34,956 bases of DNA. Source: Bacteroidota bacterium. GTDB taxonomy: Bacteria > Bacteroidota > Bacteroidia > Palsa-948. Under the pieces are notes generated by a model. It had not been told where the DNA came from. It was given only the letters and a program-made list of their open reading frames with translations, and did not search any database. The stretch spans positions 1 through 34,956 of the forward strand of contig JACRAM010000107.1 in NCBI GenBank assembly GCA_016213405.1, read 5' to 3'. The position numbers and the translations under genes were made by a program. Positions 2,914 to 34,464 of the stretch are shown piece after piece. How positions within the stretch are numbered: position 1 is the stretch's first letter; each line of letters opens with the position of its first letter.

Positions 2914-3921
2914 TCAAGATGCCCTCATACAATTAACAATCTTCACCGCCTCTTTCGCTTCTTTCACATCATGCACTCTGAGAATGTTTGCTCCGTTCAT
3001 TAATGCAATGGTGTTGGCAGCGGTGGTTCCGTTAGCCCCCCTGCCCCCCGAAGGGGGGGGACTTGAGCGTGCATTCCTCTCCCCTTTGGGGAGAGAAGGA
3101 GAGGGGTCTGTTGCGTTACTTATCATTGATTTTCTTGAAAGCCCCGCAAGGATTGGCAAACCAAATTCTTTGAACTGGGCAAGATGTTTAAGCAGCGTGT
3201 AGTTATGCTCAAGAGTTTTTCCAAATCCAAATCCAACGTCAATTATTAATCTTCCATCCTTCCATCCTTCCAATATTCCAATCTTCTCTTTGAAGTATTC
3301 CTTCACTTCTTTCACCACATCTTTGTAGTGTGGATTCTTCTGCATCGTCTGCGGTGTTCCTTGTATGTGCATTAATACATACGGCACATTTAATTTAGCA
3401 ATTGTCTCAAACATTTTGGTTTCCGGTTTACGGTTTACCCCGTTGGAATTATTTCCTACGGGGTTTCCGGTCTCCGGTTGGTTGGCTGTTGAACCGTAGA
3501 CCGTAGACTGTAAACCGTAAAACATAAACCCGCTTCCTCCCGAAACGTCATTAATCATATCAGCTCCGGCATTCACGGCTTCTTCAGCAACTTTGCTTCT
3601 GAATGTGTCGGCAGAAATAATTACATCAGCAAATTTTTTTCGCACAAGTTGAATTGCCGGAATCAATCTTTTTAATTCTTCTTCTTCCGAAACTTCTTTG
3701 GCATTGGGTCGGGTAGAGCAGGCGCCAATGTCAACGATATCTGCCCCTTCAAAAACCATCTTTTCTACGTGAGAAAGTAAAGCCCCCTCCCCAGCCCTCC
3801 CCCCAAGGGAGAGGGAGAAATAATTTCCTCCATCGTAAAAAGAATCGGGAGTAACGTTGAGAATTCCCATTACGGCAGGAGAGGAGAGGTCGAGTATCTT
3901 GTTTTTAAATTGAAGATTCAT
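2914..3921 (-). CDS. folP: Dihydropteroate synthase with three in-frame repeat insertions
   Basis: Joins 6-hydroxymethyl-7,8-dihydropterin pyrophosphate to p-aminobenzoate in folate synthesis, in the cytoplasm. Family motifs appear in order: VMGILNVTPDSFYDGG near residue 18, ADIVDIGACSTRP, ISADTFRS, MINDVSGG, YVLMHIQGTPQTM, IDVGFGFGK, AGLSRKSMI and the C-terminal NILRVHDV. The length is 335 residues against about 270-280 usually. The surplus sits in three blocks that coincide with palindromic repeats: after the DGG loop (YFSLSLGGRAGEG), after MINDVSGG (about 38 residues including STANQPETGNPVGNN), and after SRKSMI (SPSLPKGERNARSSPPPSGG). All are in loops and the frame stays open, so the enzyme is probably active. 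It is divergent from the DUF1599 gene, a pairing I recall from other Bacteroidota. Confidence 0.95.
   Translation of the reverse strand: MNLQFKNKILDLSSPAVMGILNVTPDSFYDGGNYFSLSLGGRAGEGALLSHVEKMVFEGADIVDIGACSTRPNAKEVSEEEELKRLIPAIQLVRKKFADVIISADTFRSKVAEEAVNAGADMINDVSGGSGFMFYGLQSTVYGSTANQPETGNPVGNNSNGVNRKPETKMFETIAKLNVPYVLMHIQGTPQTMQKNPHYKDVVKEVKEYFKEKIGILEGWKDGRLIIDVGFGFGKTLEHNYTLLKHLAQFKEFGLPILAGLSRKSMISNATDPSPSLPKGERNARSSPPPSGGRGANGTTAANTIALMNGANILRVHDVKEAKEAVKIVNCMRAS
3034..3107 (-). repeat. Double-hairpin C element inside folP
   Basis: Read on the minus strand it has the same layout as the elements at 8381-8459 and 10445-10523. An outer stem (ACCCCT...AGGGGGGCT) encloses hairpin CTCTCCCCAAAGGGGAGAG, a linker with TGCACGCTCAAGTCC, and hairpin CCCCCCTTCGGGGGG. 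It falls between the SRKSMI motif and the NGTTAANTIALMNGANI segment of FolP, adding roughly 25 residues. Confidence 0.85.
3418..3522. repeat. TTTACGG-type composite element inside folP
   Basis: The left arm (3418-3471) carries GGTTTACGGTTT and an embedded CCCCGTTGGA...TCCTACGGGG palindrome at 3438-3463. The right arm (3493-3521) is nearly identical, 27 of 29 bases, to the sequence at 5135-5163 just after the four-helix-bundle gene. The left arm shares about 36 of 37 bases with 4677-4714. Only about 20 bases separate the arms here. It encodes the second in-frame insertion of FolP. Confidence 0.85.
3780..3825. repeat. Short CCCTCCC palindrome inside folP
   Basis: AAGCCCCCTCCCC followed by CCCTCCCCCCAAGGGAGAGGG and AGAAATAATTT. 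It matches the copy at 34469-34513, down to the trailing GGGA(G)AAATAAT. On the minus strand it encodes the first FolP insertion between the DGG loop and the helix before GADIVDIG. Confidence 0.8.
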
Positions 3922-3937
3922 GTTTTTAAAACTCTAA

Positions 3938-4060
3938 ACTCTAATTTCGAAATCCTAAACAAATTCTAAATTCAAATCTTTAAACTTTTAAACAATGTTT
4001 TTGATATTTGAATTTTAATATTGAGATTTGTTTAGAGTTTAGGATTTAGAATTTCGGATT
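3938..4060. repeat. AT-rich imperfect inverted repeat
   Basis: The folP/DUF1599 intergenic region (3922-4101) is mostly one large AT-rich imperfect palindrome. The left side contains CGAAATCCTAAACAAATTC and TAAATTCAAAT. The right side contains ATTTGAATTTTAAT and GTTTAGAGTTTAGGATTTAG, and ends in AATTTCGG. The words CTAAACTCTAAA/TTTAGAGTTTAG recur on both arms. It lies between two divergent genes and could affect either promoter. Confidence 0.65.
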
Positions 4061-4077
4061 TACTTTACTAAAAAGTT

Positions 4078-4101: not shown

Positions 4102-4656
4102 ATGTCAAAAACCAGCCAGCAGTTTGATTCTGTCGTAAAGCAGTGCAAAGATATTTTCATTAAAAAGATGCTTGATTATGGTTCTGCATGGCGTGTGATG
4201 CGCACTCCGAGCATTGTTGACCAGATTTTTATCAAGACCCAGCGCATCCGCACCATTGATGATAAAGGTACTCAAAAAGTAAAAGAGGATATTGGCTCTG
4301 ATTACATCGGCATTGTCAATTATTCCATCATCGGTTTGATTCAGATTGAACTCATTAATGACACACAGCATGAAATCTCGGTAGAAGAAGCAGGCAAGAT
4401 GTTTGATAAATTCTCTAACCTGGCGAAAGCACTCATGGAAAATAAAAATCACGATTACGGAGAAGCGTGGCGCGATATGCGGATAAGTTCATTTGCGGAT
4501 TTGATATTGGTAAAACTACTTCGTATGCGTCAGATAGAAGATCATAACGGCAAAACATTAATCTCTGAAGGAATTGATGCGAATTATTTAGACACAATGA
4601 ACTACGCGATTTTTGCGTTGATAAAACTGGAAGAAAAGAAAAATCAAACTGCATAA
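4102..4656 (+). CDS. DUF1599 protein, two tandem domains
   Basis: 184 residues with two copies of the DUF1599 domain. The first, at about residues 11-90, contains KKMLDYGSAWRVMR, DQIFIKTQRIR and YIGIVNYSIIGLIQIE. The second, at about 104-180, contains NKNHDYGEAWRDMR, DLILVKLLRMR and YLDTMNYAIFALIKLE. The repeated 'K..DYG.AWR.MR' and 'R.I.D...G' words are the conserved signature. The family's activity is not established; it has been grouped with nucleotide-modification-associated domains, and in Bacteroidota it often sits between folP and a DoxX/tpiA cluster, as here. Cytoplasmic, no signal peptide. Preceded by a good -7 box. Confidence 0.9.
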   Translation: MSKTSQQFDSVVKQCKDIFIKKMLDYGSAWRVMRTPSIVDQIFIKTQRIRTIDDKGTQKVKEDIGSDYIGIVNYSIIGLIQIELINDTQHEISVEEAGKMFDKFSNLAKALMENKNHDYGEAWRDMRISSFADLILVKLLRMRQIEDHNGKTLISEGIDANYLDTMNYAIFALIKLEEKKNQTA

Positions 4657-4657
4657 T

Positions 4658-4719
4658 GGTTTACGGTCTACTGTTTACAGTTTACCCCGTTGGAATTATT
4701 TCCTACGGGGTTTACGGTT
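4658..4719. repeat. Left arm of element around the four-helix-bundle gene
   Basis: GGTTTACGGTCTACTGTTTA and GTTTACC followed by the palindrome CCCCGTTGGA...TCCTACGGGG (4685-4710) and TTTACGGTT. The 26-bp palindrome is identical to 3438-3463 in folP. The arm begins directly after the DUF1599 stop codon and ends 14 bases before the next ATG. Confidence 0.85.
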
Positions 4720-4733
4720 AAATACAAAAGACA

Positions 4734-5135
4734 ATGGCAACATTTAAAAGATTCGAAGACATAGAAGCTTGGCAACTTGCTCGAGAAATTTCTAAGGAAG
4801 TTTACCAACTTTCAAGGGTTGGAGATTTTACTAAGGATTTTGAATTAAGAGGACAAGCGCGTGCTTCTTCTGGTTCGATGATGGATAACATAGCAGAAGG
4901 TTTTGACAGAGGAAGTAAGAATGAGTTTGTTCAGTTTCTCACAATTGGGAAAGGTTCCGCAGGAGAATTAAAATCTCAATTATACAGGTCATTAGATAAT
5001 CAATATATTTCTCAAATTGAATTTGAAAACCTTTATAACAAAACTGATAAGTATAGTAAAATGGTTGCTGGATTAATTTCTTATTTGAATCAGTCCAATA
5101 TCAAAGGACAAAAATTTAAAGACAGAGTGAATTAA
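4734..5135 (+). CDS. Four-helix-bundle protein (23S rRNA intervening-sequence type)
   Basis: 133 residues. It matches the four-helix-bundle family first seen as ORFs in 23S rRNA intervening sequences (TIGR02436 type): FEDIEAWQLAREISKEVY at the N-terminus, LRGQARASSGSMMDNIAEGF with the diagnostic 'S...NIAEG' turn, then GSKNEFVQFLTIGKGSAGEL and the C-terminal helices. The family is structurally related to the Avd accessory protein of diversity-generating retroelements; no reverse transcriptase is present here. The gene is inserted between DUF1599 and the DoxX gene, bounded by inverted TTTACGG-type repeats, and is smaller and more AT-rich than neighbouring housekeeping genes. No rRNA gene is nearby. 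Function unknown; cargo of a repeat-bounded unit is my inference. Confidence 0.9.
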   Translation: MATFKRFEDIEAWQLAREISKEVYQLSRVGDFTKDFELRGQARASSGSMMDNIAEGFDRGSKNEFVQFLTIGKGSAGELKSQLYRSLDNQYISQIEFENLYNKTDKYSKMVAGLISYLNQSNIKGQKFKDRVN

Positions 5136-5166
5136 CCGTAGACCAAAGACTGTAAACCGTAAACCC
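5136..5166. repeat. Right arm of element around the four-helix-bundle gene
   Basis: CCGTAGACCAAAGACTGTAA followed by ACCGTAAACCC, running from the stop codon of the four-helix-bundle gene to the base before the ATG of the DoxX gene. Its reverse complement begins GGGTTTACGGTTTACAG, matching the start of the left arm. Nearly identical to 3493-3521 within folP. Confidence 0.85.
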
Positions 5167-5167
5167 T

Positions 5168-6283
5168 ATGAAGATCGTTATACAACTTTGCAGAATTCTG
5201 GTTGGAGTGCTGTTTATTTTTTCCGGACTCATCAAAGCAAACGACCCGCTGGGGTTTGCTTACAAACTAAATGAATACTGGGAAGTGTTTGGAACAGCGT
5301 GGATGACACCATTCTCGCTTTTTATTTCCATTTTCATGTGCGCCATTGAAGTTCTTCTCGGATTTATGCTTCTCATCGGCTCAAAAATTAAATTCACGCT
5401 CTGGCTTTTATTTCTCATGATTTTGTTTTTTGCCTTTCTGAATTTCTATTCAGGATATTTTGATGCTGTGCGCGAATGCGGATGTTTTGGCGATGCAATC
5501 AAAATGACTCCCTGGCAGGAATTTGTAAATAATTGCGTTATGCTTGTGATGACGGTATTTATGTTCATTGGGAAAGACCATATCCGACCTATTTTCTCCG
5601 GAAGAATTGAAAAAACAATGTTGATTATTTTCACTATCTCTTCATTCGGATTTCCGCTTTACACGTACAATTATCTTCCCATAAAAGATTTTCGCCCTTA
5701 TGCCATTGGAAAGAATATTCAGGAAGGAATGAAACTACCGCCAGGTGCGAAAACAGACAGCATTCAAATGGTTTTCATTTATGAAAAGGACGGCAAACAA
5801 ATTGAACTCACACCCGAACAAATTAAAACAATTGACTCCACTTACAAATATATTGACAGGAAAGATAAAGTGATTCGAGAAGGAGACAAACCCGCTATTC
5901 ATGATTTTAGCATAACATCGGCTGACGGAAGTGATTACACGGAACAGATTCTGAATTACGATGGATATTATTTCTTCCTCGTTTGTTATGATTTGGAAAA
6001 AACCAACAAAAATGTTTTCGGAAAAATAAATGACTTCGCCCGGCTTTGCAGGCAAGACAGCGTTCCGATTATTGTTCTCACTTCTTCAGCAGAGTTGATT
6101 GAATCATTTAAAAAAGAAACAAGAACTGATATTGATTTTTATTTTTCTGACGGAACAACTTTAAAAACAATGATACGTTCCAATCCCGGTCTCATGCTTC
6201 TGAAAAAAGGAACTGTTGCAGATATGTGGCATTATCATTCGTTTCCATCATTCTCTGATGTAAAAGAAAAATACTTAAAATGA
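5168..6283 (+). CDS. BT_3928-like DoxX/MauE-type membrane protein with C-terminal thioredoxin-like region
   Basis: 371 residues. The N-terminal 180 residues hold five or so membrane segments of the DoxX/MauE kind (CRILVGVLFIFSGLIKANDP, then several hydrophobic helices) with a conserved ECGCFGD motif whose two cysteines (104 and 106) face the membrane surface. The remaining part (about 190-371) is soluble and looks like a thioredoxin-fold domain without a CxxC (YYFFLVCYDLEKT, VPIIVLTSS, PGLMLLKKGTVADMWHYH). The family occurs next to tpiA and DUF1599 in Bacteroidota. A redox or electron-transfer role at the inner membrane is inferred from DoxX/MauE relatives and is unproven. Followed by the ABC permease 49 bases later. 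Confidence 0.85.
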   Translation: MKIVIQLCRILVGVLFIFSGLIKANDPLGFAYKLNEYWEVFGTAWMTPFSLFISIFMCAIEVLLGFMLLIGSKIKFTLWLLFLMILFFAFLNFYSGYFDAVRECGCFGDAIKMTPWQEFVNNCVMLVMTVFMFIGKDHIRPIFSGRIEKTMLIIFTISSFGFPLYTYNYLPIKDFRPYAIGKNIQEGMKLPPGAKTDSIQMVFIYEKDGKQIELTPEQIKTIDSTYKYIDRKDKVIREGDKPAIHDFSITSADGSDYTEQILNYDGYYFFLVCYDLEKTNKNVFGKINDFARLCRQDSVPIIVLTSSAELIESFKKETRTDIDFYFSDGTTLKTMIRSNPGLMLLKKGTVADMWHYHSFPSFSDVKEKYLK

Positions 6284-13423: not shown

Positions 13424-15316
13424 TTATTTTTTCAGAACAGGAAGCAAAATTGACGAAGCGTTGTTCGCATCATGATAGATTTTTATAGTTGACTTTATAA
13501 AATCTTTTTCATCACAGTGGTAAATGTCAAGAAACTGCTGTGGGTTGCGGTCTGCCAGGGGAAACCAGCTGCTTTGTATCTGCACCATGATGCGATGCCC
13601 TTTCTGAAAGGTGTGAGCCACATCGGGCAGTTCGTATTTTACTTCAGAGATTTTGTTGGGAACAAACGGTTCGGGCTTTTCAAAACTGTTTCTGAATTTT
13701 CCGCGCATGATTTCTCCGCGCACGAGCATCTGGTAACCACCCATTGGGTAAGGTTTGAGTTGATGAGTTGAAGAGTTGATGAGTGAAAGACTGTCGGAAT
13801 ATTTGAAGTCATTTGGAAAAACATCTATGAGCTTTACTACGAAATCTGCATCGGTGGTGGAAATACTCACAAAAAAATCTGCAATTACAGGACCCGTAAG
13901 AGTTACCTCTTCGGTGAGAATATCTGTTTTAAAAGTGAGAACATCCGTTCTTCGCGAAGCGAAACGCTGGTCGTCTGTCATATATTCTCGCGTGCGGTTT
14001 ATGTGAACATCCTCGGTGTAAGGAACAGGATGCGCAGGGTCGCTTACATATTCTTCAAAACTTTTTGTGGTGATTGGCTTTGTAAACCTCAGTGCGCTTT
14101 GTTCGTTCAGGTAGAGGGCTTTGCTTTCTACATTTTGTGGAGGCCATTCAGCAAATTGTTTCCATTTGTTTTCTCCTGTGAGAAAAACATTTACAGGAAT
14201 CAAATAAGGAACATCGCTTTGATTTTTTAAATAATAATCAAAAAAAGGCATTTCAATATTTTTATAATAGTAATCCGAAACACCTTTTCCGAATTGCACA
14301 TTTCCCAAATGGCTTCCGTCACCGCGCGCCCATCCTCCATGAAACCAAGGTCCGATTGCAAGCATGCACATTGTGTTCGGACTTTGCTTCTTGATTGTTT
14401 TGTATGTGTTCCATGTCCCCCAGCAATCTTCTGCGTCAAATAAACCTCCTGTGATGAGCAGGGCGGGTTTTACATTAAATAAAGAATACGTTACTGTGTG
14501 TGCTTTCCAGAAATCATCGTAGTTAGGATGGTTCATTTCTTCCTGCCAGAATTTCATGGTGTCGCCCATGTAATGCTTGGTGAGATTTTTCAGCGTTCCT
14601 TCTTTGAGAAAAAAATCATAGTTGTCGGCAGTAGGATAATTGAAATCCTTTCCATAATCTGTAACCGGCTTCGGGCGAGGAACTCCGAATGAATAATCAA
14701 AATCAAAACAATCCATCACGAAGAACGCACCTTTATGGTGCACATCATCGCCAAGAAACCAATCGGTAACAGGCGCCTGCGGGCTAACGGCTTTCAATGC
14801 GGGATGTCCTGACAAAGCAGCTATCGTGGAATAAAATCCCGGATAAGAAATTCCGCTTACGCCCACATTTCCGTTGTTAGATGGAATATTTTTTATCATC
14901 CAGTCAATCGCATCGTAGGTATCGCTCGCTTCGTCCACATCTTTATTTGTTTTCTTTTCCTTGATGAACGGGCGGATATCTTCATACACGCCTTCGCTCA
15001 TGTATCGCCCGCGCACATCCTGAATCACGACAATATATTTTTCCTTCAGATAAATTTTTGTGTTCCGCTCCCAGAAGGGTTTAAATTTAGTTGAACCGTA
15101 AGGCGCGCAGGAGTATGGCGTGCGCATCATCATAATGGGATGCTTTGAAGAAGAATCTTTGGGAATGTAAATTGAAGTGAAAAGTTTTATTCCATCGCGC
15201 ATGGGAATCATTTTCTCCATTTTGTAATAGTTATTTACCATCCAGACAGAATCCTGGTTCTGGGAGAAAGAGAATAAGGGGAAGAGTACAACTAAGAGTA
15301 GGAATTGTTGTTTCAT
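13424..15316 (-). CDS. CocE/NonD-family alpha/beta hydrolase (X-Pro dipeptidyl-peptidase/acylase type)
   Basis: 630 residues with a signal peptide (MKQQFLLLVVLFPLFSFSQ). The N-terminal hydrolase domain shows MIPMRDGIKLFTSIYIPKD, IVVIQDVRGRYMSEG, and the nucleophile motif VGVSGISYPGFYS (Ser at about residue 154). A catalytic Asp lies in GGLFDAEDCWG and a His in IGPWFHGGW. The C-terminal part (about 400-630) is the beta-sandwich of the PepX C-terminal kind. Relatives cleave acyl groups from amino-acid esters, cocaine, glutaryl-cephalosporins or peptides, so the substrate cannot be read from sequence. Probably periplasmic. An in-frame tract SLINSSTHQLKPYP in the C-terminal domain coincides with a GAGTTGATGAGTT repeat. 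Confidence 0.9.
   Translation of the reverse strand: MKQQFLLLVVLFPLFSFSQNQDSVWMVNNYYKMEKMIPMRDGIKLFTSIYIPKDSSSKHPIMMMRTPYSCAPYGSTKFKPFWERNTKIYLKEKYIVVIQDVRGRYMSEGVYEDIRPFIKEKKTNKDVDEASDTYDAIDWMIKNIPSNNGNVGVSGISYPGFYSTIAALSGHPALKAVSPQAPVTDWFLGDDVHHKGAFFVMDCFDFDYSFGVPRPKPVTDYGKDFNYPTADNYDFFLKEGTLKNLTKHYMGDTMKFWQEEMNHPNYDDFWKAHTVTYSLFNVKPALLITGGLFDAEDCWGTWNTYKTIKKQSPNTMCMLAIGPWFHGGWARGDGSHLGNVQFGKGVSDYYYKNIEMPFFDYYLKNQSDVPYLIPVNVFLTGENKWKQFAEWPPQNVESKALYLNEQSALRFTKPITTKSFEEYVSDPAHPVPYTEDVHINRTREYMTDDQRFASRRTDVLTFKTDILTEEVTLTGPVIADFFVSISTTDADFVVKLIDVFPNDFKYSDSLSLINSSTHQLKPYPMGGYQMLVRGEIMRGKFRNSFEKPEPFVPNKISEVKYELPDVAHTFQKGHRIMVQIQSSWFPLADRNPQQFLDIYHCDEKDFIKSTIKIYHDANNASSILLPVLKK
13753..13789. repeat. 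TTGATGAGTTGAAGAG repeat inside the CocE-like gene
   Basis: The tract TTGAGTTGATGAGTTGAAGA followed by GTTGATGAGTGAAAGAC is low-complexity and repeats GAGTTGATGAGT. It encodes SLSLINSSTHQL in the hydrolase. It looks like a short multicopy repeat captured in the coding frame, but with only this copy in the window the claim is tentative. Confidence 0.4.
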
Positions 15317-17043: not shown

Positions 17044-18237
17044 ATGAAAAAACATTTCAATAAAAGAAAATTTGAATCCAGCCCGAAAAGAGAGGGCGAT
17101 CGAAGAAAAGAGTATAGCGATAAGCGTGCTCGCCCCACTGAACGAGGTCAGTCGTTCGGACGGGAATGGAAAAAAGGAATTCAGCACAGCGATAATAGCG
17201 AACAGCGTGGTGGCGGCTATGGAGAAAGAAGAAATGATAGAGATAAAGAAAAAAGATTTCCTGAAAAGCGTGAATGGAAGAAAGATAATGAACGTCACAA
17301 TGATAAAGAAAATCGAAAAACCGGATATGCAAACAGTAATACGAATGAGCGAAGCGATGGAAAAAAGCCATGGAAAAAGTCAGGCAGCTGGAGCGGGAAC
17401 AGGAACAAGTATGGCGGAAGAAAACCTTATGACAAAAAACGTGATGATAATATTAAAAAAGCATTTGAGAAAAGTGAAAGGAATTCTCCCAAAACTCCGA
17501 ACTCCGAACTCCGAACTCCGAGCTCCGAGCTCATCCGCCTCAATAAATATCTATCCAATGCCGGCATCTGCTCAAGAAGAGAAGCAGATAAATATATTTC
17601 TGCAGGCGTAGTCACCGTGAACGGAAAAATAATTACCGAACTCGGCTATAAAGTCTCTCCCAGCGATAAAGTTCAGTTTGGCGGAAATAAAGTGCATAAA
17701 GAAAAAACAGTTTACATTCTCCTCAACAAACCCAAGGGCTACATCACCACCTGCGATGATCCCCATGAGCGCGATACTGTGATGGATCTGATCAAAGAAG
17801 TTCAGGAACGCGTTTATCCTGTAGGAAGATTGGACAGGCACACATCAGGATTACTTCTTCTCACCAACGATGGCGAACTCGCCAAAGTGCTCATGCACCC
17901 CAAATATCAGGTGCCGAAAGTTTATCATGTTGAATTGGATAAACCACTCCGCGTTGACGACCTTGATAAAATCCGTATAGGTATTGAACTGGAAGACGGT
18001 TTTATCAAACCCGATGACATAGCGTATGTGGATGGTGCAGCAACAAAAAAGGAAATAGGCATCGAAATTCATTCCGGCAGAAACCGGATCGTGCGCAGAA
18101 TTTTTGAATCACTCGGCTATATAGTAATGAAACTTGACCGCGTGTTTTACGCTGGACTTACAAAGAAAACTCTTTCCCGAGGCAAATGGCGCTTCCTTGC
18201 GGATAACGAGGTGAGGATGCTGAAGCGCAACAAATAA
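17044..18237 (+). CDS. RsuA/RluB-family rRNA pseudouridine synthase with long basic N-terminal tail
   Basis: 397 residues from the ATG at 17044. Residues 1-155 are a disordered, very basic, Arg/Lys/Gly/Ser-rich region (ERGQSFGREWKKG, RNKYGGRKPYDKKRDD), common in Bacteroidota members of this family. Then an S4 RNA-binding domain (IRLNKYLSNAGICSRREADK) at about 161-205, and the catalytic domain with VYPVGRLDRHTSGLLLLTND, where Asp264 is the nucleophile, plus HPKYQVPKVYHVEL and GRNRIVRRIFESLGY. It isomerises a uridine in rRNA; RluB (23S) is more likely than RsuA, but the site cannot be fixed from sequence. The linker between tail and S4 domain contains a 7-bp tandem repeat. Confidence 0.92.
   Translation: MKKHFNKRKFESSPKREGDRRKEYSDKRARPTERGQSFGREWKKGIQHSDNSEQRGGGYGERRNDRDKEKRFPEKREWKKDNERHNDKENRKTGYANSNTNERSDGKKPWKKSGSWSGNRNKYGGRKPYDKKRDDNIKKAFEKSERNSPKTPNSELRTPSSELIRLNKYLSNAGICSRREADKYISAGVVTVNGKIITELGYKVSPSDKVQFGGNKVHKEKTVYILLNKPKGYITTCDDPHERDTVMDLIKEVQERVYPVGRLDRHTSGLLLLTNDGELAKVLMHPKYQVPKVYHVELDKPLRVDDLDKIRIGIELEDGFIKPDDIAYVDGAATKKEIGIEIHSGRNRIVRRIFESLGYIVMKLDRVFYAGLTKKTLSRGKWRFLADNEVRMLKRNK
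17494..17533 (+). repeat. Tandem 7-bp repeat (ACTCCGA) in coding sequence
   Basis: Four ACTCCGA units are followed by two GCTCCGA-like units. As 7 is not a multiple of 3, each unit is read in a different frame, giving TPNSELRTPSSEL. It sits in the flexible linker of the pseudouridine synthase, where length change is harmless, provided the total stays in frame. Confidence 0.85.
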
Positions 18238-34084: not shown

Positions 34085-34464
34085 CTGTCAGCCGAAAGAT
34101 GCCGTTAAAAGTTGTCAGGGTATGCGAGATGGTCGGGATAAGAAACGCTGTCCCCCGAAAGTTGCTGTTAATGTTACTGTCCAGATGCGAAGTTGTCGGG
34201 AAAAGATTGTCTATGCTTGAGCCGAACCTGACAATGCTTCGGTCAAACCTGTCAATGCTTCCGACCAGATGCGCTATGCTTGAGTCAAGATGCGCTATGT
34301 TTTACTCAAGATGGTCTATGCTAAGGTCAGACCCCGCAATGCTTAGGTCAAGATATGACATGCTGTCAACGAGATATGCTATGCTGTCAACGAACCTGTC
34401 AATGCTTCGGGCAAGATATGACATGCTGTCAACGGGAAGGGCTATGCTTGGGTTTTTTCGTCAA
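34085..34464 (-). repeat. 21-bp-period array encoding degenerate heptads (probable coiled-coil pseudogene)
   Basis: From 34213 on, an ATGCT (once ATGTT) recurs exactly every 21 bases at 34213, 34234, 34255 and so on to 34444, twelve times. The other 16 bases of each unit vary. More diverged units with the same period continue down to about 34085. On the minus strand each unit is a heptad with Ser-Ile (or Met) then Leu or Phe three residues later: SIDRFVD, SIAYLVD, SMSYLDL, SIDHLE-stop, NIAHLDS, SIAHLVG, SIDRFDR, SIDNLFP, TTSHLDS, NINSNFR. Ile and Leu spaced 3 then 4 is the a/d pattern of a coiled coil. One unit carries TAA, and no start codon was found, so the reading frame is probably decayed. 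Confidence 0.8.

Follow-up and report, generated by a model that had tools for sequence, protein, structure and literature searches.

The small bacterial gene family S23/IVP was first known from inserts in 23S rRNA. A member of it in the window, a 34,956-nt stretch of a Bacteroidota genome (contig JACRAM010000107.1), lies between two inverted arms, in each of which a degenerate unit of 7 or 8 nt is repeated some four to five times. Gene and arms are probably inherited and spread as a unit, forming a minimal mobile, and probably selfish, element. The repeats differ from element to element, the repeat length follows the phylogeny of the protein, the insertion sites are polymorphic among congeners, the IVP genes lie in sense with their neighbours, and gene-less arrays of the same kind match the IVP arms of their own genome.

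Table 1 Features of the window around the IVP gene and the folP element
Feature	Position	Strand	Evidence or remarks
folP, host of a gene-less element	2914..3921	-	ORF and domain search, congener comparison
Gene-less heptamer palindrome, same family as window arms	3410..3531	.	in frame within folP; nested 26-nt palindrome 3438-3463
Second gene-less inverted heptamer array, other family	3925..4062	.	AAACTCTAAACTCT / GTTTAGAGTTTAGG (AAACTCT units), between folP and DUF1599
DUF1599 flanking gene	4102..4656	+	stop codon adjoins 5′ arm
5′ arm, first part	4658..4684	+	tandem degenerate heptamers GGTTTACGGTCTACTGTTTACAGTTTA; lag 7 or 8 identity 17/21
26-nt palindrome in 5′ arm	4685..4710	+	flanked by TTTA; a repeat of its own with 22 copies
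Remainder of 5′ arm	4711..4720	+	TTTACGGTTA
IVP/S23 four-helix-bundle gene, 133 aa	4734..5135	+	PF05635, TIGR02436, model
3′ arm, inverted heptamers	5134..5168	+	AACCGTAGACCAAAGACTGTAAACCGTAAACCCTA
MauE/DoxX flanking gene	5168..6283	+	start codon at 3′ arm end

The window element is located between the DUF1599 and MauE/DoxX genes and not in a 23S rRNA helix (Table 1). Its whole 5′ arm spans 4658-4720, the IVP start lies ~14 nt past this left arm, and the right arm adjoins the IVP stop codon. Both arms consist of tandem heptamers of the type GTTTACG/GTCTACG, inverted between the two sides, and the identity of the 5′ arm at lag 7 or 8 was equalled in none of 500 shuffles. The complementary ends can pair as a stem, and RNA folding was better than that of shuffles for the window element (z -4.3) as well as for the element inside folP (z -4.9). 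A preliminary description of this DNA had claimed that the two elements share their arms. A repeat search confirmed this: 3418-3471 matches 4665-4718 (54 nt, 91% identity), 3492-3526 matches 5134-5168 (35 nt, 89% identity), and 3438-3463 and 4685-4710 hold the same 26-mer, CCCCGTTGGAATTATTTCCTACGGGG, letter for letter. The same description read the two as an autonomous/MITE pair or as a captured cassette. This stood in form, as the IVP gene behaves together with its arms as a unit that can be inserted, and the genome also contains gene-less arrays of these repeats; it did not stand in letters. The folP and window elements may be a direct autonomous/MITE pair or two members of one heptamer family. 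The arm letters and the 26-nt palindrome do not surround the other IVP genes, and every IVP gene has its own repeat sequence; members of the family without such arms, named beforehand as a refutation, exist as far as the letters are concerned, whereas the arm architecture is retained.

The ORF at 4734-5135 matched PF05635 (23S_rRNA_IVP; E 1.1e-29, 103 bits) and TIGR02436 (97 bits). These were the only matches, and no known recombinase, nuclease, transposase or RT domain was found in the protein, which is a point against a mobile element. The AlphaFold model (pLDDT 92) was most like two structures of the S23 family, 2GSC (Z 18.8) and 2RLD (Z 17.0). It also resembled the Avd proteins of DGRs, 8ub7_D (Z 13.8; 1.8 A over 107 residues) and 4dwl_D (Z 13.4), at scores to be read against the 13.2 of an unrelated helical bundle.

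Inverted arrays of ~4-5 degenerate, element-specific 7/8-mers bracket nearly all of the examined IVP genes, across Bacteroidota and several other phyla. The window's own genome (G000; 3.65 Mb, 95% complete) contains 23 IVP genes including that of the window. Tandem ~7-nt repeats begin at once on both sides of these genes and are mirrored, with letters differing per locus; the units are GCAGTAG at L027, ATTAAGG at L044, AAGTCCC at L041 and the 8-mer GATGTGCG at L036. The idea of common arm letters for all IVP genes was rejected after the flanks of the other copies in this genome had been read. For 22 of the 23 genes, no more than 1 of 200 shuffles gave an inverted match as good as that between the flanks. 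At least one arm was significant alone for 7/8 periodicity in 20 of them; neither arm was in the other three, which speaks against the mobile-element reading. Among 82 IVP genes drawn from the own genome, its relatives and the phylum, a best lag of 7 or 8 was seen upstream in 61 and downstream in 56, versus 42 of 164 for other ORFs at the same loci. The mean score of the inverted arm match was 30.2 for the two arms of one element, compared with 15.6 for cross-element pairs and 17.4 for the direct orientation. The same architecture was detected at loci of Planctomycetes, Chloroflexi, Acidobacteria, Deltaproteobacteria, WOR-1, Victivallales, Hydrogenedentota and CPR, in a set that also contains many near-identical Flavobacterium loci.

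Plasmid-borne IVP genes with arms were found in Nostoc, Calothrix, Anabaena, Geminocystis, Riemerella and Azospirillum. No arms were found at the IVP locus of Calothrix PCC 7716, and the arms on the Pseudanabaena and Gemmatirosa plasmids appear direct, not inverted, which again weighs against the mobile-element reading. On plasmids of Pseudanabaena and Anabaena the IVP gene is inserted between cas6 and cas4, and in Picosynechococcus between cas10/cmr2 and cmr3 (L343, L348, L354). A figure legend on associations with CRISPR adaptation names PF05635 (PMC10910872), and insertions of IVP genes into cas/cmr operons may explain this published association of the family.

The median number of units per arm was ~4.4 for both 7-nt and 8-nt repeats, which indicates that the unit count is conserved and not the length. 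In the 5′ arm, AG was present in 75 of 98 units and CT in 13 of 98. The repeats do not appear to serve as stop codons in three frames, an idea that was rejected because 1.76 frames were stopped versus 1.72 in shuffled units. Mismatches between the two arms were G.U in 100 cases and A.C in 122. As G.U is not the commoner of the two, there is no evident selection for RNA pairing, and selection on an RNA stem was rejected for the same reason.

Gene-less arrays of G000 match the IVP arms of this genome better than those of other genomes. In 400 kb of G000, 33 strict arrays were detected at lag 7 and 5 at lag 8, while strict arrays were almost never found at lags 4-6 and 9-13, and lag 14 echoes lag 7. 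When 51 gene-less arrays, taken at a slightly looser threshold, were compared with equal-size arm sets, the mean score was 0.654 with the IVP arms of their own genome versus 0.585 with those of other genomes (sd 0.007, max 0.602). A score of at least 0.7 was reached by 15 arrays with own arms versus 1.5 with other-genome arms. Paired inverted arrays at most 1.5 kb apart in 435 kb were either gene-less, with spacers of 9-67 nt, or IVP-bearing. All three gene-bearing pairs that belong to one element enclose IVP genes; one further pair joins the two window elements. No strict array was present in 320 kb of six IVP-free genomes. Strict arrays correlated moderately with IVP density (rho 0.42, p 0.04) in 24 single- or few-contig Bacteroidota genomes, a thinly sampled relation uncorrected for phylogeny. 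That the correlation is no stronger is a point against the mobile-element reading, as are some IVP-rich genomes with zero strict arrays in 60 kb. Other short-period repeats in the window are a near-perfect (AACTCCG)5.7 array in the N-terminal part of a pseudouridine-synthase-like ORF (17493-17532), octamer arrays within genes at 13756-13790 (TGAGTTGA) and, in folP, at 3248-3286 (CTTCCATC), and a region of degenerate 21-nt (3 x 7) repeats with ATGCT units (34213-34434).

The insert in folP of G000 is missing from folP of six congeners, and in G002 the position is taken by another heptamer array. When the window was shuffled 100 times with dinucleotides preserved, no 34-nt match arose to the 26-nt palindrome of the folP and window elements with its flanks (at most 3 mismatches). 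CCCCGTTGGAATTATTTCCTACGGGG occurs at 22 places in the G000 genome (L001-L022; at most 3 mismatches), most of them away from IVP genes, and among the IVP genes whose flanks were read it is present only at the window copy. Many of the palindromes elsewhere lie inside heptamer arrays of other families, often flanked by TTTA. The closest paralogue of the window gene (L030; contig C110, unlinked, 80% identical protein) shares the heptamer arms but not the palindrome, which indicates that the palindrome is nested in the left arm of the window element. It was thus rejected as a part of the element and is regarded as a separate repeat. This palindrome family may itself be a very small mobile hairpin, with the TTTA as a duplication of 4 nt.

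When the repeat length was placed on a tree of 98 IVP proteins less than 70% identical to each other, 13 changes between 7 and 8 nt were required, compared with a mean of 23.8 after shuffling, and none of 500 shuffles gave so low a number. One 8-mer clade unites Flavobacteria with Planctomycete, Hydrogenedentota and Balneolaceae records. The arm letters follow protein similarity weakly (Mantel rho 0.126, 2/1000); tight coupling of letters to protein sequence was rejected on this ground, and the weakness of the relation counts against the mobile-element reading. Paralogue pairs at unlinked loci (proteins 80% and 85% identical) have a common arm family, and their homology stops at the arms. The dN/dS ratio was 0.04-0.12 in the four computable pairs, and the window pair was saturated; these ratios indicate that the IVP proteins are under purifying selection. 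The arms of the L043/L044 pair are still alike at dS ~1, which suggests that the arms are maintained too. The close paralogue pairs are old (dS ~1 or saturated) and a very recent jump is not among them, a further point against mobility.

Comparison of congeners revealed that the insertion sites are polymorphic. Empty sites at the DUF1599-DoxX junction, proposed earlier as a check, do exist: the two genes overlap in G006 and are separated by 6 nt in G005 and 9 nt in G001. At the same junction, G000 has the IVP gene and G003 a remnant of one side only, while G002 (117 nt) and G004 (132 nt) have gene-less heptamer palindromes. The nuoI-nuoJ junction is empty in G001, G006 and G002, contains an IVP gene in G000 and, in G003, a gene-less palindrome whose heptamer is related, and carries another type of intergenic repeat, CTCCCC...GGGGAGG, in G004 (L291) and G005 (L287). 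Between nuoC and nuoD, a 445-nt insert with matching ends was found in G000 (IVP) and G004, none in G006 and another short insert in G005; fadB-fadA is empty (7 nt) in G006. The data for these last two junctions are partial, as the stretch covered does not include the upstream partner in some congeners. A clean target duplication was not seen at the compared junctions, which weighs against the mobile-element reading, but their flanks have diverged. The IVP gene was in sense in 124 of 125 loci at which both neighbours, called as long open frames, are co-oriented. Reliance on transcription by the host may underlie this bias, or else antisense copies may be selected against. In 47 of 63 loci, no more than 15 nt lay between the upstream stop codon and the start of the array.

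In the reading that we prefer, the element sits between genes of a host operon just past a stop codon and in sense, apparently using host transcription. The IVP protein, pentamer-forming and Avd-like, would most likely recognise the repeats of its own arms, perhaps with one repeat bound per subunit of the ring, and mobility would be driven by this protein of the element itself. Gene-less palindromes such as that of folP would be non-autonomous derivatives, produced by loss of the gene or by movement in trans, and the 23S rRNA intervening sequences would be elements of the same kind located in rRNA.

Alternatively, the heptamer palindromes could arise independently, by slippage or through another agent, and IVP genes could home into their loops, so that the arms belong to the target. 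The great excess of gene-less palindromes over IVP genes in G000, the gene-less palindrome of G003 at the nuoI-nuoJ site of an IVP gene in G000, and the fast change of arm letters relative to the IVP protein are all in line with this. We consider it unlikely, since repeat length tracks protein phylogeny across phyla, paralogues at unlinked loci retain a common arm family, fully empty sites exist, and strict arrays are absent from the sampled IVP-free genomes. Slippage or chance without any link to the IVP gene would fit the abundance of heptamer arrays in G000. It is hardly credible in view of the controls (flank lag, pair score, own-arm match and array pairs in 435 kb) and of the same architecture in many phyla.

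An IVP ring could also act on RNA, in the manner of the RNA regulator TRAP: it would bind single-stranded repeats in mRNA and control its own operon and, in trans, genes beside gene-less arrays, with mobility being incidental or lost. The structure of XCC0516 is pentameric (PMC4990558), and the ~4-5 repeats per arm at either repeat length, the prevalence of AG in 5′-arm units and the sense bias agree with such a role. This analogy is improbable, since the mismatch counts give no sign of selection for RNA pairing and the sites are polymorphic and functionally unrelated. Finally, the elements might be moved in trans by an RT, in a retrohoming of the Avd/DGR type, or by a Y1/IS200 transposase, with IVP as an accessory. 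The protein has the Avd fold and the counts of IVP and Y1 genes correlate (rho 0.44, p 0.005). RVT_1 had no match in G000 or in 14 of 20 IVP-rich relatives, however, and its counts were hardly related to those of IVP (rho 0.14), so that dependence on an RT was rejected. Dependence on Y1 was rejected as well, although the counts correlate: heptamer arms are absent from all seven Y1 loci examined in G000, and G015 is without a Y1 match despite its 12 IVP genes. Mobilisation by another enzyme is thus very unlikely. Several of these Y1 genes (L303-L309) are flanked on either side by short hairpins distinct from the heptamer arms, resembling REP/RAYT. Carriage of IVP genes by phages was rejected after no match was found in a phage collection and none among PHROGs.

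The preferred reading of a mobile IVP element can be extended to a proposal that is possible and in our opinion doubtful: a new class of mobile elements whose sole protein is a non-enzymatic-looking pentameric ring that counts repeats, one 7/8-nt unit per subunit on a single-stranded arm, while the letters of any one element are free to drift. The heptamers of Bacteroidota, Cyanobacteria and Xanthomonas would then descend from such elements. Apart from this extension, the bracketing of IVP genes by heptamer arms would tie together two puzzles and make both testable: that of the S23/IVP genes, which dates from the description of 23S rRNA intervening sequences, and that of tandem heptamers of no accepted origin in several bacterial genomes. 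The prediction is that each IVP protein binds the repeats of its own arms. A mobile element would also be defined without a recognised recombination enzyme, and the IVP genes in CRISPR operons would be explained as passengers.

IVP elements have terminal inverted repeats common to gene-bearing and gene-less copies and empty sites in relatives, as transposon/MITE systems do. They resemble REP/RAYT and MITE/transposon pairs in having inverted repeats around a gene and many gene-less copies, and differ from them in that IVP is not a Y1 or other known transposase and the ends consist of degenerate arrays, different in each element. With Avd of DGRs, the IVP protein shares the four-helix fold (8ub7, 4dwl), whereas an RT is present in DGRs and RVT_1 is without a match in G000. 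STRR sequences of cyanobacteria are heptamer tandem repeats of unknown origin. The homology of PF05635 to Avd has been noted previously (PMC10053308). Other heptamers of this kind have been described as GGGAATC in Xanthomonas and GGGGA(C/T)T in Nostoc, with 70 cases of inverted pairs in one Xanthomonas (PMC4692102), and as TAACTGA in Beggiatoaceae (PMC4679880). Like the IVP arms, these are 7-nt tandem arrays, mostly intergenic, some in inverted pairs. A text search found no mention of S23/IVP genes in either paper, and a link of these heptamers to IVP is a prediction that may hold. Neither S23/IVP genes joined in general to inverted heptamer arms nor a general rule of element-specific 7/8-mer arms with gene-less derivatives was found in a literature search that covered few subscription papers and no preprints. 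The only published case found with a similar look is the intervening sequence of Coxiella, which has a 28-bp terminal stem and 2-3 GACAGAT heptamers upstream of the S23 ORF, in a number that varies among strains (PMC4990558). The 23S rRNA intervening sequences of Coxiella and Leptospira, like the window element, carry an S23/IVP-family ORF between complementary ends; they reside in rRNA, whereas the window element lies between protein genes. The present elements may thus be a variant of the intervening-sequence kind, of which the mobile-element mechanism itself may be new.
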